A program made the position numbers and the translations under genes. Source: Chitinophaga pinensis (lineage in GTDB: Bacteria > Bacteroidota > Bacteroidia > NS11-12g > UBA955). From it: a stretch of 34,511 nucleotides of DNA. How positions within the stretch are numbered: the first letter of the stretch is position 1; each line of letters begins with the position of its first letter. Location: assembly GCA_945888525.1 (NCBI GenBank), contig CAMDAF010000005.1:1-34511 (forward strand), given 5' to 3'. The notes beneath the pieces were generated by a model that searched no databases, had not been told where the DNA came from, and saw only the letters and a list, made by a program, of their open reading frames with translations. Of the stretch, positions 11,300 to 19,191 are shown one piece after another.

Positions 11300-11710
11300 A
11301 TGAAAGTATCTGTTTTTAGAAAAGCACATTTTAATGCTGCACATAGACTTCACAACGCTTTATTAAGCGAGGAAGAAAACAAAGAAATATTTGGTTTGTG
11401 CAACAATCCAAATTACCATGGCCATAACTACGTATTAGAACTTCAAGTAAAAGGAGAAGTTGATCCTATCACTGGATTTGTTATTGATACTAAAATATTA
11501 AAGAACTTAATCCAATCAGAGGTTCACGATCAATTTGACCACAGGAATTTAAATCTTGATACTGCCGAATTCAAAACACTTAATCCCAGTGCTGAAAATA
11601 TAGCCATTGTGATTTGGGAAAAAATGAGGGCTAAGCTTCCTGAAAGTTTGGCTGTAAGTGTTAAACTTTACGAAACTGAAAATAACTACGTCGAATTTGA
11701 CGGCCAATAA
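11300..11710 (+). CDS. 6-pyruvoyl-tetrahydropterin synthase/QueD family protein
   Basis: 136 residues, full length for the family. Zinc ligands are His15 (AAHRL) and His40/His42 (HGHNY). The catalytic Cys34 and the DHRNLN motif with His81 are present, as is the substrate-binding Glu125 (LYETENN). Cys34 and His40 are spaced as C-x5-HGH (CNNPNYHGHNY). This is the form of animal PTPS, rather than the C-x3-HGH of typical bacterial QueD. The enzyme acts on dihydroneopterin triphosphate. The product is either 6-pyruvoyl-tetrahydropterin (biopterin path) or 6-carboxy-tetrahydropterin (queuosine path), which motif spacing alone does not settle. folE, which makes its substrate, begins one base after its stop, so the two form an operon. 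Confidence 0.88.
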   Translation: MKVSVFRKAHFNAAHRLHNALLSEEENKEIFGLCNNPNYHGHNYVLELQVKGEVDPITGFVIDTKILKNLIQSEVHDQFDHRNLNLDTAEFKTLNPSAENIAIVIWEKMRAKLPESLAVSVKLYETENNYVEFDGQ

Positions 11711-11711
11711 T

Positions 11712-12359
11712 ATGCATACAGAAGACCACGACCACGATTTTGACGATTCTCACATTGGTACACCATTGAGAAATGATGCTTTCGAAAAGACTGATGAGCA
11801 AAAAATTGAAATTATTCAAGAACATTTCAAAGCAATAATGGAAACGCTTGGACTTGATTTGAACGATGACAGTTTAAATGGAACGCCCAAACGCGTCGCA
11901 AAAATGTATGTTAAGGAAATGTTTTGGGGACTCAACCCAGAAAACAAACCGGAGGTTTCCCATTTTAAAAACAATTTTAGATACAATGAAATGCTTGTCG
12001 AAAAAGACATTCATTTCTATACCAACTGCGAACACCATTTTGTGCCTTTTTTCGGAAATGCGCACATTGCCTACATTCCAAATGGTAAAGTAATTGGTTT
12101 GTCAAAGCTCAATAGAATTGTCGAATATTTTGCAAAAAGACCTCAAGTTCAAGAACGCATGACCATGCAAATTTCAAATGAATTGAAAAAAATTCTAGGT
12201 ACCGATAATGTCGCCATAATTATTAATGCAAAACATCTTTGTGTTGCAAGTCGCGGTATCAAAGACAACAGCAGCCATACCACGACCTCTGAATATTCTG
12301 GCCGTTTCAATGACACGGAAACCAGAAACGAGTTGCACCGTTTACTTGCTTTGAAATAG
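11712..12359 (+). CDS. folE: GTP cyclohydrolase I
   Basis: 215 residues from the ATG at 11712; the longer open frame upstream overlaps the previous gene and is not needed. It converts GTP to 7,8-dihydroneopterin triphosphate, the first step to folate, biopterin-type cofactors and queuosine. Type I landmarks are LNGTPKRVAKMYVKEMFWG and FYTNCEHHFVPFFGNAHIAY. Zinc ligands are Cys106, His109 and Cys177 (AKHLCVASRG), followed by TTTSEYSGRF. The first 20 residues are an acidic, His-rich leader (several DH repeats) not shared with the family core. It follows the PTPS-like gene by one base, giving substrate supply and use in one transcript. Confidence 0.96.
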   Translation: MHTEDHDHDFDDSHIGTPLRNDAFEKTDEQKIEIIQEHFKAIMETLGLDLNDDSLNGTPKRVAKMYVKEMFWGLNPENKPEVSHFKNNFRYNEMLVEKDIHFYTNCEHHFVPFFGNAHIAYIPNGKVIGLSKLNRIVEYFAKRPQVQERMTMQISNELKKILGTDNVAIIINAKHLCVASRGIKDNSSHTTTSEYSGRFNDTETRNELHRLLALK

Positions 12360-12410: not shown

Positions 12411-15400
12411 ATGAAAAAATTATTATGCATTCTTTTGTTTACGCCTTTCATTCTAAAAGCGGATTCCGTATTCCAATACAAAGACTATTGGAAAAATAGA
12501 AAACCCAATGCGGCATATTGGCAACAAGATGTGCATTACACCATTCAGGCCAACATTGATGATGTGAAAGATGAAATTACCGGAACTGAAACTTTGGTTT
12601 ATTACAACAACAGCCCAGATGTTTTAAATAAAGTCTATTTTCATTTGTATCAAAATGCCTTTCAACCAGGAAGCTACGCGCATGCTTTGAATGAAGTAAA
12701 TGATGAAGAAACAAAATTCGGAAAATATGAAGCCCTCAAAATGGGAACTTTAATTGATGAATTTAAAATAAATGGACAAGCCGTAACTTATGTAATTGAT
12801 AATACCATACTTATTGCAAGTCTCGCAAAACCACTAGCACCCGGTGAATCAATAACCTTTACTATAAATTTTAGAACCTTTTGGGACAATGGCACCATGA
12901 GAAGACGTTTTAAAACTTTCTCTCCCGATGGAATCAACAAACATTTTGATGGTGTGCATTGGTACCCAAGAATTTGTGTTTACGATAGAAAATTTGGTTG
13001 GGAAACCGATCAACACCTTGGCAAAGAATTTTATGGCGATTATGGGGTGTTTGATGTGCAGTTAAATTTTCCATCGAACTATGTCGTTGAAGCTACGGGT
13101 TCTCTGCAGAATGAATCGACAGTGATGCCCGAAGAGCTTCGAAAAAGTTTGGATATTGCCAACTATTCTATTGAACAAATTGGGGCTGACGGAAAAACCA
13201 AAAGAGTGCCTACTAATTATAAATACAGCATTCCAGCTGGTTCAAGAAAAACATGGATTTACCATGCAGAGAATGTGCATGATTTTGCTTTCACCGCCGA
13301 CCCAACATACAGAATGGCAGAAGTCATTTGGAAAGGTATACGTTGTATCGCATTGGCTCAAGAACAAAACGCGCCATACTGGTACCCAACCGCTGCTTTT
13401 GTAGCCAAAGTCGTTGAGACCTACAGCACTGATTTTGGAATGTATGGATGGCCGAAAATTGTTGCAGCGGATGCCCGCGATGGCATGGAATATCCAATGA
13501 TTACACTTAATGGGGGAAATTGGCCAGGTCATCAATACGTCATCGCTCATGAAGTTGGGCACAATTGGTTTTTTGGTATGATTGGAAACAATGAAACCTA
13601 CAGAGCCATGCTCGATGAAGGATTTACCCAGTTCTTAACCTCCTGGAGCATTAAGCGTTACAACAACATTCCAATGCATGCCAATTCTTACGATGAACAA
13701 TCTGTGTACAATGGATACTTAAACGACGCATTAAACAAAAACGACGAGCCTTTAAATACCCACAGTGATGATTTTGGATCTGCAGTTGGACATGGAGGTG
13801 GATACAGACATGTATATTACAAAACCGCTACCATGTTGTATAATCTTCAATATGTGCTTGGTGATACTTTGTTCCTGAGCGCAATGAAGCATTATTTTAA
13901 CAAATGGAAATTTGCCCACCCATATCCTGAGGATTTCAGACAAGCAATAATTGAATACAGTAAAGTTGATTTGAATTGGTTTTTCGATCAGTGGATGGAA
14001 ACGACCAAGTCAATTGACTACAAACTTATTGGTTACCAGAGAATAAAACGAAATTCGAACGATGGCAAGTATTATTATCAAATTGCACTTAAACGCAAAG
14101 GCGACATGCAAATGCCGATCGATTTAACGGTTAAAGACAAGAGCGATAAAAATTACGAATACCTAATACCCAATACATATTTTAACAAACAAGAGGGTAG
14201 GACTTTGCTCAAAACTTGGAAAGGTTGGGGCTTGCTCAACCAAAAATACGTAGATACAATCGTATTGAACAAAAAAATTAAAACCATTGAAATCGATACC
14301 ACCCATCGTTTGGCTGACATATACCGATTGGATAACAGGATAGAAGGCAATAATTACGCTCTGCCTGCAAAGGTGAGATTAGATAAAGGTATTGCTCAAA
14401 CGTCTAGCTTTAATTATCAAAACGTATACCTGCGTCCTGACCTCTGGTTCAATGCAGTTGATGGAATGAAAATAGGCATGCACTCGCGCATTGAATATGC
14501 CAAAGTTAAACATGTACTAGATTTTAATGTTTGGTACAATTCAGGAATTGGCGCAGAGAAAAAATATACGACCTCAGTTAGAACCCCACTTTCTTATAGA
14601 TTACACTACTCGAATTTACTTGGAAGAGATGCCTTTATATATTGGGATACAAGGTTTTTAGACGGTGTTTTTTATGATGATTTAGGATTTAAAAAAACGT
14701 TTGGGAAAAACTTTGTAAACATACATTTTAAATCCATTTCGATGGATAGCAATGCGCGTGTTTACTGGCCTTCTGCAGCAAGTTTGAATAGAGAATTAAA
14801 AAGCAACAGCAGCATCATTATCGATTTCAATAGAAATTACCGCTACAAAAGAGGTAATGGAATAATTAAGTCTTCATTGAGAGGCAGCAGTCTAACAAAA
14901 GACTACGCTTATGGTTCGTTTAAATTGGAGGTTCTAAACAATACCCATTTTGGAAAATTAGACATTAAAACTAGGTTCTACTTCCAACATATTGAAGGAA
15001 GTGCTATTCCTGAAGAGGTGATGTTAAACTTAGCTTCTGCCAATATGGAGGAAATGTTGGAAAGTAAATTCACCCGTTCACGCGGCTGGATTCCTCAGGA
15101 ATACTTAGGGTATGGCAGCAGCACAAACCATTTTCAAATTGGTGGTGGTCTTAACTTACGCGGTTATGCAGGATATTTAGCGCCTGTTACCAAAGACAAT
15201 TTAATATACCAACTATACAAAGGCAATGGCGGTGTTTCTGCTTCTGTTGAAATAGACTTCGACCGTTTTGTGAAATTTGCGCCTAAAATCACCAGGAATT
15301 GGTTAAAAATGGATGCTTATGCGTTTGCAGATGCAGGCATTCTATACAATAGCAACTTGATTAACACTGTCCAATCTCCATTAAGAATGGATGCTGGTCT

Positions 15401-15557
15401 TGGTACTTGTTTGACCATTTCCAAATGGGGAAAACGCAATCTAATACAGCCATTTACCTTGAGATTTGATATGCCTTTTATTTTAAATACAGCGCCATAT
15501 TCAGATAAAGGATTTGTGCAAAGTCGATGGTTATTTGGAATTGGAAGAAGCTTTTAA
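12411..15557 (+). CDS. M1-family metallopeptidase fused to Omp85-like outer membrane barrel
   Basis: 1048 residues. A signal peptide (residues 1 to about 17) is followed by an M1-type gluzincin peptidase domain (about 30-560). Its zinc site is HEVGH at 380-384 with the third ligand Glu403 in LDEGFTQF, the 18-residue spacing of M1 enzymes. The substrate-side motif reads DGMEYP in place of GAMEN. After a strand-rich linker (about 560-660), residues about 660-1048 look like a 16-strand barrel of the BamA/Omp85 surface-antigen family. Evidence is alternating strands, the loop-6 signature LRGY at 916-919 (within GGGLNLRGYAGY), the later DAYAFADAGIL and PFTLRFDMPF strands, and a terminal Phe (FGIGRSF). 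The protein is therefore probably an outer membrane-anchored peptidase; which side the peptidase faces is unknown. A 65-residue membrane protein gene follows six bases later. Confidence 0.85.
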   Translation: MKKLLCILLFTPFILKADSVFQYKDYWKNRKPNAAYWQQDVHYTIQANIDDVKDEITGTETLVYYNNSPDVLNKVYFHLYQNAFQPGSYAHALNEVNDEETKFGKYEALKMGTLIDEFKINGQAVTYVIDNTILIASLAKPLAPGESITFTINFRTFWDNGTMRRRFKTFSPDGINKHFDGVHWYPRICVYDRKFGWETDQHLGKEFYGDYGVFDVQLNFPSNYVVEATGSLQNESTVMPEELRKSLDIANYSIEQIGADGKTKRVPTNYKYSIPAGSRKTWIYHAENVHDFAFTADPTYRMAEVIWKGIRCIALAQEQNAPYWYPTAAFVAKVVETYSTDFGMYGWPKIVAADARDGMEYPMITLNGGNWPGHQYVIAHEVGHNWFFGMIGNNETYRAMLDEGFTQFLTSWSIKRYNNIPMHANSYDEQSVYNGYLNDALNKNDEPLNTHSDDFGSAVGHGGGYRHVYYKTATMLYNLQYVLGDTLFLSAMKHYFNKWKFAHPYPEDFRQAIIEYSKVDLNWFFDQWMETTKSIDYKLIGYQRIKRNSNDGKYYYQIALKRKGDMQMPIDLTVKDKSDKNYEYLIPNTYFNKQEGRTLLKTWKGWGLLNQKYVDTIVLNKKIKTIEIDTTHRLADIYRLDNRIEGNNYALPAKVRLDKGIAQTSSFNYQNVYLRPDLWFNAVDGMKIGMHSRIEYAKVKHVLDFNVWYNSGIGAEKKYTTSVRTPLSYRLHYSNLLGRDAFIYWDTRFLDGVFYDDLGFKKTFGKNFVNIHFKSISMDSNARVYWPSAASLNRELKSNSSIIIDFNRNYRYKRGNGIIKSSLRGSSLTKDYAYGSFKLEVLNNTHFGKLDIKTRFYFQHIEGSAIPEEVMLNLASANMEEMLESKFTRSRGWIPQEYLGYGSSTNHFQIGGGLNLRGYAGYLAPVTKDNLIYQLYKGNGGVSASVEIDFDRFVKFAPKITRNWLKMDAYAFADAGILYNSNLINTVQSPLRMDAGLGTCLTISKWGKRNLIQPFTLRFDMPFILNTAPYSDKGFVQSRWLFGIGRSF

Positions 15558-17443: not shown

Positions 17444-19066
17444 TTAACGTTCGACAACTTCAGCCAATACTCTGAAACCTAATGTGGCATTAGGTTCTGA
17501 ATATCTCTCTTTTGAAATTAACATGATGTCATATTGTGTTGAAATCCATGATCCTCCTTTTGATGTGCCTTTTTCTTCTACCATTTCTGCAACATTTCCT
17601 GAGCAGTTGTGAAGGCCATAATTGTTAGGGAAATATGACTTGGTATAATGTGGAATTAAAGCACCATCTGCTGTTCTATTCATTGCTATTCCATTGTTGT
17701 TTACCCATGAATAGTTATTGTTGCTGTCTTGGTATAAATACTGGTCTTCTAATGGAGCGAAATTTGCCAAATAACAACCTCGATTATTTCTTGTATAGCT
17801 GCCACCCCAACCATAAAGGTCTTTATAACCCCCATATGCAGCATGCATCCACTCGTTCTCATTGGGTAATCTAAATACAACTTTGTGGTATTCTCTTTTC
17901 GGATTGGAATTGTATTTTTCACCCAACCATTTACAGTAGGCTAGGGCAGATTCATAGGTAATCCCTACAACTGGAAAATTATTAAATGCTGAATGCCACG
18001 CATATTGTTCAAAATAGCTGTATCTAAAAATAGGTTTCCAAATTCCAACTTTGGGTTTTAAACTGCTGTCTTTGTATTCTGTCAGAAATTGTTTGTATTC
18101 TAAATTGCTAATTTCATTGCTCATGAATTTAAAATTATCAGAGTTGTTTTGTTTTGGAATGTACTCAAATCCATTTGAATTCATTTTATTTTGAATCTCA
18201 AACTTGGGAATTGTTTTATTGTCATAGGTTTCCACCACCTCAATAACATATCTAAAGCCTATGTGTGAAGAGGCTGCTCCATCTTTTGAATACTGCGACA
18301 CATAATTTATTCGACAGTTATAGGGTGTAGTATTCCAGCTGCCTCCTTTTGAAAGCCCTTCTTCCTCAATCCACTCTGCAACATTTCCACTCATATTGTA
18401 CAATCCATAAGCATTTGGCCAATAGGAGTACACTTCAGTTGTTATCATCGTATTATAGGGTTGAAGCGTTTCGTATGATATGGTTCCCATTTTGCAATTG
18501 AGCAAAATCTTACCTAAGTGTTTCTTTTCAGGTCCACAATACCGCACACCTTCGCATGCCCATGGATAATTAGCCCCCGGTTTTTGTCCACCTTCTGCCG
18601 CCATTATCCATTCTTGTTCACTTGCCAGTCTTACGATGACTTTCTTGATTTTGCTCTCTGTATTTAATTCCAGATAATCGTTGTATTTAGTCTGCAGCCA
18701 ATTGCAGTAAGCCATGGCATGCTTCTGACTTACACCAACAACTGGCATATTTTGAAATGCATTGGATTGGAAATAATGGTTTCTAAATGCCTCAAATCCT
18801 TTTCCCCAAACATTGGTGTCTGGATACATGAGGTTGTATATTGATTGGTCCATTGACTTTGTCCAATTCAAAAAAGACCTGTATTCTTGGTTGCTCACTT
18901 CAGTTTCTTTCATGTACAAATAACTGCCTAGTATCGGTTTCGAACCTTCCAAAACAGACCCGTCGACGATTATAGGCATAGTAAAGTTCATAGGGTAGCT
19001 TATTTTTTTGGGATAAACGTTATTGGTTGTAAATATTAGTATTAGAAGGAAGGATAATTGTTTCAT
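17444..19066 (-). CDS. Secreted protein with two FGE-sulfatase-fold domains (GldJ/GldK-like)
   Basis: 540 residues from the ATG at 19066. A signal peptide comes first, without a lipobox. Two similar halves follow. Domain 1 (about 45-290) runs from KETEVSNQEYRSFL to NMSGNVAEWIEEEGLSKGGSW and SSHIGFRY. Domain 2 (about 300-540) runs from SNEISNLEYKQFL to NCSGNVAEMVEEKGTSKGGSW and NATLGFRV. These are marks of the formylglycine-generating-enzyme fold, also used by gliding/type IX secretion proteins GldJ and GldK. In the FGE active-site segment after GGSW, the two Cys are not both kept: domain 1 has only the second (TTPYNC) and domain 2 neither (STQYDI). An FGE-type oxidase role is thus unlikely and a structural or binding role fits better. 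No other gld genes are nearby. Confidence 0.8.
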   Translation of the reverse strand: MKQLSFLLILIFTTNNVYPKKISYPMNFTMPIIVDGSVLEGSKPILGSYLYMKETEVSNQEYRSFLNWTKSMDQSIYNLMYPDTNVWGKGFEAFRNHYFQSNAFQNMPVVGVSQKHAMAYCNWLQTKYNDYLELNTESKIKKVIVRLASEQEWIMAAEGGQKPGANYPWACEGVRYCGPEKKHLGKILLNCKMGTISYETLQPYNTMITTEVYSYWPNAYGLYNMSGNVAEWIEEEGLSKGGSWNTTPYNCRINYVSQYSKDGAASSHIGFRYVIEVVETYDNKTIPKFEIQNKMNSNGFEYIPKQNNSDNFKFMSNEISNLEYKQFLTEYKDSSLKPKVGIWKPIFRYSYFEQYAWHSAFNNFPVVGITYESALAYCKWLGEKYNSNPKREYHKVVFRLPNENEWMHAAYGGYKDLYGWGGSYTRNNRGCYLANFAPLEDQYLYQDSNNNYSWVNNNGIAMNRTADGALIPHYTKSYFPNNYGLHNCSGNVAEMVEEKGTSKGGSWISTQYDIMLISKERYSEPNATLGFRVLAEVVER

Positions 19067-19191
19067 GGTCTTAAGCAAAGATACTTTTTTAAAATATATT
19101 TTGATATCTCTAGTTTAAATTCTATCATTGCTGCGCTAAATTGGCAGACATTTGAATTTTTGAAACAAGCCAATAAAAAATAAACAATAGT

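Follow-up and report, generated by a model that had tools for sequence, protein, structure and literature searches.

An M1 peptidase followed by a predicted Omp85-type outer-membrane barrel, an apparently undescribed domain architecture in Bacteroidota

Ten subfamilies of Omp85 proteins, some of them devoid of POTRA domains, were distinguished by Heinz and Lithgow in 2014, and the subfamily section of that survey names no M1 enzyme (PMC4104836). Their 'Metallo' subfamily corresponds to PF00149, which is termed metalloprotease in the same section (PMC4104836). Furthermore, PlpD, which was once thought to export its patatin domain, carries this domain exclusively in the periplasm according to the relevant passages of a more recent report (PMC11116518).

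In the open-access literature, to which our search was confined, we found no description of a fusion between an M1 peptidase and an Omp85 barrel. Here, we describe such a protein encoded in a stretch of 34,511 nucleotides (further referred to as the window) from a genome assigned to Chitinophaga pinensis. What is new is its domain architecture, apparently undescribed among Omp85 proteins, and neither the fold nor the enzyme. Proteins of this kind are likely to be annotated simply as M1 peptidases, since Pfam recognises their M1 part only.

Layout of the protein and the M1 active site

The open reading frame at positions 12411-15557 of the forward strand starts with ATG and remains open for 1048 amino acids. 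Its product consists of a signal peptide, an M1 peptidase whose zinc site is complete, a beta-sandwich and a C-terminal 16-stranded barrel (Table 1). The earlier note on this DNA had proposed a signal peptide, an M1 zinc site and an Omp85-like C-terminal half, and this proposal has been borne out by the sequence, the Pfam match to M1, conservation and fold. The signal peptide appears to be of the Sec/SPI type, its type and cleavage site being read from the sequence by eye, and no lipobox was seen in it by eye. Matches of M1-only frames from other genomes stop around the end of the sandwich.

Table 1. Features of the M1-barrel protein, with window coordinates; fractions refer to the alignment of 63 sequences
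Feature	Residues	Position	Strand	Basis or conservation
Signal peptide	~1-18	12411..12464	+	From sequence; helix 2-14 in model
M1 metallopeptidase domain	26-537	12486..14021	+	Pfam PF01433 at 374-528 and structure matches
DGMEYP, at the place of GAMEN, E360 kept	357-362	13479..13496	+	63/63
Zinc motif HEVGH	380-384	13548..13562	+	H380, E381, H384 each 63/63
Third zinc ligand	E403	13617..13619	+	63/63
Tyrosine at the M1 catalytic tyrosine position	Y469	13815..13817	+	63/63
Beta-sandwich, M1 domain III-like	538-640	14022..14330	+	DSSP of model
Linker (~29 residues)	641-669	14331..14417	+	24% mean identity; pLDDT blocks 84-86
Omp85-type 16-stranded beta-barrel (predicted)	670-1048	14418..15554	+	AlphaFold2, Foldseek, VIA, hhalign
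Loop 6, strands 11/12	865-939	15003..15227	+	Model and alignment
GGGLNLRGY, at the place of Omp85 VRGF/Y	911-919	15141..15167	+	R917 63/63, G918 61/63

The Pfam search placed the Peptidase_M1 match with an E-value of 2.2e-17, and the zinc site follows the pattern HExxH(18)E, with E403 standing 18 residues after HEVGH. We take E381 to occupy the place of the catalytic residue, and E360 that of the glutamate binding the free N-terminus, in M1 enzymes such as PepN and LTA4H; Y469 presumably stands at the place of the M1 catalytic tyrosine in the VYxK motif. When the whole model was compared with M1 structures, the best VIA result was obtained with 1z1w (Z 29.5, 466 aligned residues, 2.9 Å). By its zinc site and predicted fold the protein is thus placed in peptidase family M1, with active-site residues that appear intact.

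Conservation was assessed with an alignment of 63 sequences, namely the window protein and 62 homologues drawn from the best 80 loci, of which 18 were removed by hand as near-duplicates, truncated sequences or sequences with an unusual frame or start (an earlier, smaller alignment had comprised 21 loci and the window). Apart from the invariant residues listed in Table 1, F972, D974 and G976 and, further in the barrel, R1018, D1020 and P1022 were identical in all 63 sequences, and the last residue was phenylalanine in 62. A chance origin of the motifs is excluded because of their conservation across this set. Mean identity to the window protein amounted to 62% in the M1 domain, which is its best conserved part, 43% in the sandwich, 40% in the barrel and 53% in loop 6.

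In all 63 members the methionine and glutamate of the GxMEN motif are kept, with the first glycine replaced by aspartate and the asparagine by tyrosine, and in a related M1 family the same place is occupied by GGMEYP (11 of 12 members) or SGMEYP (one member). The suggestion that DGMEYP may signal a different style of cleavage is therefore weak, and no altered cleavage is indicated, since the exopeptidase glutamate is conserved.

Barrel fold and kinship with Omp85 proteins

The full protein was modelled with AlphaFold2 from the 63 sequences, with a pLDDT of 85 and a pTM of 0.81. In this model, residues 670-1048 form 16 strands, the first 11 separated from the last five by a 75-residue loop 6, which holds GGGLNLRGY together with a small hairpin; in Omp85 proteins, loop 6 likewise lies between strands 11 and 12. 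A separate model of the barrel agreed with this (pLDDT 85, pTM 0.82). The earlier note had taken residues 660-1048 as the putative barrel and named a structure prediction and a fold search as checks, with 16 strands and an Omp85 loop-6 arrangement as support; the predicted barrel begins close to that position and has both features, and the fold search did retrieve Omp85 structures.

Foldseek with the barrel alone matched 97 PDB chains at E ≤0.001 (best E 1.3e-8), the best 50 of which were all BamA, TamA or SAM (Sam50) entries; TM-scores normalised to the query length were just 0.36-0.50, at an rmsd of 7-15 Å. A second look at the Foldseek candidates with VIA gave Z 20.5 for BamA of E. coli (294 aligned, 4.5 Å), 20.3 for that of Deinococcus (294 aligned, 4.2 Å) and 19.6 for that of F. 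johnsoniae (308 aligned, 4.9 Å), scores that are to be regarded as ties. The profile of the barrel was also compared by hhalign with 18 BamA/TamA-type barrels of relatives (18 of the 31 Omp85 loci L129-L159), which resulted in a match of E 1.9e-7 and 94% probability over 152 columns in the C-terminal half of the barrel, with the RG motifs out of register. Comparisons with individual Omp85 proteins encoded in the own genome remained weak (E 0.13, 0.38 and 0.0027), and significance was reached only with the set of 18; of the individual comparisons, those at E 0.0027 and 0.13 have the RG motifs in register. The strands of the barrel exceeded those of the M1 domain modestly in the odd/even contrast of hydrophobicity (p 0.037), a weak sign. 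LRGY of the window protein stands at residues 916-919 and its last residue is F1048; the loop-6 motif of F. johnsoniae BamA, as given in the passages cited, is LRGY as well, identical in every letter (PMC12611786).

Sequence libraries gave a different picture. Pfam and NCBIfam searches of the C-terminal half returned no Omp85 match, and Pfam found nothing beyond Peptidase_M1 at E 0.1. None of the 63 barrels of the family was matched by Pfam Omp85 (PF01103), and a search of the own genome with this model at E 10 returned three genes, the window protein not among them. In the PDB, neither the barrel profile (E 10) nor the full-length profile (E 1e-10) found a match. One could hence suppose that a periplasmic sandwich, or a barrel of some other type, makes up the C-terminal half and that LRGY arose by chance, a reading to which the silence of PF01103 for the protein and its 63 barrels and that of the PDB at E 10 would lend weight. 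Fold searches, profile comparison and the order of motifs agree on Omp85, however, which makes that alternative extremely improbable; it is refuted as long as either of the two predicted models is right. The missing PF01103 match reflects the model library and not the fold, and we accept kinship of the fusion with Omp85 proteins because it was decided by the fold and not by searches of sequence libraries. The assignment of the C-terminal half to the Omp85/TpsB superfamily is thus supported by 16 predicted strands, the RG motif of loop 6, and fold and profile comparisons.

Pfam detected no POTRA domain in the window protein at E 0.1, and residues 537-669 are modelled as strands without a helix of four or more residues; therefore, a POTRA domain is absent from the model. 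It should be added that 12 other Pfam families each matched no more than two of the 63 barrels (best E 0.0031, Nanovirus_C8) and were taken as chance matches. A Pfam Omp85 match above the cut-off (E 1.2e-7) at G001:C12:22780-23664 (-) lies inside a frame of 1046 aa distinct from the counterpart of the window protein in that genome, which is located on C5.

Occurrence of the fusion and of barrels without the peptidase

The genome itself carries one copy of the fusion and three weaker M1 matches in frames of 798, 840 and 898 aa. Among near relatives, all 59 genomes searched, including the own one, had a match, in many cases of full length. A scan of named genomes returned at least 592 matched stretches, of which at least 568 encode relatives, a figure that differs from the number of fusions as the scan patterns sit in the M1 part. 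The best 80 loci were kept: 77 match up to residue 1048 and one up to 1047, while the remaining two are truncated by contig ends. A full-length match was present in at least 119 of 247 genomes sampled across the class, counting the own genome and some near relatives. In some other genomes of the class, among the matches listed, the match ends near profile position 660 in frames of about 610-660 aa, which are M1 proteins without the barrel. The fusion is consequently frequent in the sampled class, occurring in roughly half of the genomes, and is no accident of a single genome. In G401 the fused gene (L184) is broken into several frames.

A second M1 family (L114-L119 and L122-L128) was noticed, with proteins of about 990-1170 aa that contain MEYP and a C-terminal half of some 400 aa looking rich in beta-structure. 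Its 12 aligned members match the window family over M1, the sandwich and the first barrel strand. By sequence, its C-terminal half was not recognisable as Omp85 (E 0.22 and 0.02), and runs at low threshold and in global mode produced no significant barrel match.

In a sample of the phylum, the barrel was detected at E 1e-10 in 47 of 296 genomes. Among the 53 matches listed, 41 fell into frames of 400-472 aa and 12 into frames of at least 994 aa; in most of the latter the barrel profile is matched incompletely, and members of the second M1 family may be among them. We read ten regions, each 9.5-11.5 kb long; one contained a fusion (L178) and nine contained stand-alone barrels, with no frame in these nine bearing both HExxH and MEYP. 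These barrels (L170-L177 and L179) lie in frames of about 400-465 aa, and several have NUDIX-, GreA-, acetate kinase- and phosphotransacetylase-like neighbours, as judged by eye. Nine stand-alone barrels from eight of the ten loci, one locus contributing two, were aligned, with L170 and L171 lacking their N-termini (the first ATG was taken) and L177 excluded for the same kind of reason. The barrel profile of the window family matched them with an E-value of 5e-46, the alignment spanning columns 36-425 of 426, and they matched the 18 BamA/TamA-type barrels at E 0.00049 with 32% probability.

Within the class, a barrel without M1 was found in two genomes, G426 (L182, 441 aa) and G357 (L183, 606 aa); in L183:4103-5920 (-), about 200 aa without Pfam match precede the barrel, where M1 would be expected. 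In a midpoint-rooted tree of 75 barrels, 63 fused ones together with L182 and L183 formed a branch with support 99/99, with the fused L178 outside, and the nine stand-alone barrels formed one group (100/99). Inner branches of the fused group were weaker, and L182, L183 and L178 have long branches, so their exact places are unsure. G426 has the same genus label as G362 and G492, both carrying the fusion. Because the two M1-less barrels stand among fused ones in the tree and G426 shares its genus label with genomes having the fusion, we infer at least one loss, and probably two, of M1 from a protein that retained its barrel. G426 has a separate M1-only gene elsewhere, and M1 activity could thus be supplied there in trans, so that the barrel need not act alone.

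By eye, a nadC-like gene is located beside both L182 and L183 and a YihY-like gene beside L182; among the 80 loci, 10 have a member of the nadC-like and 12 a member of the YihY-like homologue cluster upstream of the fusion, with a cluster member on the other side of the fusion in one of these 12. In the window, PTPS/QueD-like and FolE genes (11300-12359, +) directly precede the fusion in the same direction, and their homologues do so in seven of the 80 loci. As even the commonest neighbour cluster recurs in 12 of 80 loci, we do not propose an operon partner. Further downstream, an FGE-sulfatase protein (17444-19078, -) showed a sub-threshold match to type IX GldK (257 bits against a cut-off of 350).

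Location of the peptidase, role of the barrel and comparison with known systems

With a periplasmic N-terminus assumed, 147 residues in total fall into the eight loops facing away from M1, compared with 37 in the seven turns next to it, two of which are long (15 and 11 residues). In known barrels short turns mark the periplasmic side, and in the model the M1 domain runs into strand 1 from the side of short turns. This, together with the periplasmic precedent of patatin-Omp85, points to the M1 domain being most likely on the periplasmic side of the outer membrane.

It was also considered that the barrel might carry the M1 domain attached to it through the outer membrane and hold it outside as an autotransporter-like passenger. 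Many enzymes of Bacteroidota do act at the surface, and Omp85/TpsB proteins are capable of protein translocation, as stated in part of the 2014 survey (PMC4104836). Such display is quite improbable, however, given the entry of M1 from the short-turn side and the segment joining M1 to the barrel, which is predicted with pLDDT blocks of 82-94 and is unlike a passenger threaded through a pore. PlpD, the model for display of this kind and one of the patatin-Omp85 fusions that the earlier note gave as an autotransporter-like precedent, has its patatin domain exclusively in the periplasm according to the passages cited (PMC11116518). Of the two roles suggested from the sequence, retention of a peptidase at the outer membrane agrees with the model, and its display is not supported. 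Neither Pfam nor NCBIfam revealed a type IX sorting domain in the window protein at E 0.1, and in the model its C-terminus is the last strand of the barrel.

We therefore favour the reading in which the window protein is probably an outer-membrane-tethered periplasmic aminopeptidase. The protein would be exported by Sec and its barrel inserted by BAM, loop 6 would act as a BamA-like plug of the lumen, and the M1 domain would sit beneath the barrel on the periplasmic side, where it would trim N-terminal residues off peptides or ends of unfolded proteins near the outer membrane. As two genomes keep the barrel without M1, the barrel may do more than anchor; its likeliest additional role would be in outer-membrane assembly or transport, with the peptidase trimming for that role.

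A barrel serving solely as an anchor, itself without any part in transport or assembly, would be consistent with the better conservation of M1 and with the lack of a detectable POTRA domain. We consider this rather unlikely in view of the nearly invariant RG motif of loop 6, the two genomes with a barrel whose M1 was probably lost and the related barrels that occur as stand-alone genes in other classes. Going beyond the tethered aminopeptidase that we favour, the protein might be a coupled outer-membrane translocase-peptidase, in which a POTRA-less Omp85 machine would insert or move polypeptides and M1, standing in the place of POTRA, would trim the arriving N-termini. We regard this as an unlikely, tentative possibility; if true, such a machine would be frequent in the sampled Bacteroidota class and would have been overlooked since profile libraries miss the barrel.

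The tethered aminopeptidase would add a further kind of hydrolase-Omp85 protein, with the enzyme probably staying in the periplasm, and the naturally M1-less and stand-alone barrels offer a way to ask what an Omp85 barrel without POTRA does. With M1 aminopeptidases lacking a barrel (tricorn factor F3, LTA4H and Deinococcus M1) the window protein has in common the fold and the catalytic residues of the M1 pattern; it has instead an outer-membrane barrel after the sandwich, and DGMEYP for GAMEN. In larger M1 enzymes a helical domain follows the sandwich. Classical autotransporters (type Va) have a 12-stranded barrel, in contrast to the 16 strands predicted here. Patatin-Omp85 proteins of type Vd (PlpD, FplA) resemble the window protein in having an N-terminal hydrolase, a C-terminal 16-stranded Omp85 barrel and a probably periplasmic enzyme. 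They differ from it in their patatin-like domain, where the window protein has M1, the only domain that Pfam finds in it, and no POTRA between enzyme and barrel.

Another hydrolase to be compared is PF00149, which we take to be the metallophosphoesterase family. As described in the subfamily section, the Omp85 'Metallo' subfamily is similar to the window protein in that a hydrolase is fused to the barrel in a non-POTRA arrangement, with PF00149 and not M1 as the domain (PMC4104836). The 'noNterm' subfamily of the same section comprises barrels without N-terminal extension, which our stand-alone relatives resemble by description, whereas the window protein carries a full enzyme ahead of its barrel (PMC4104836).
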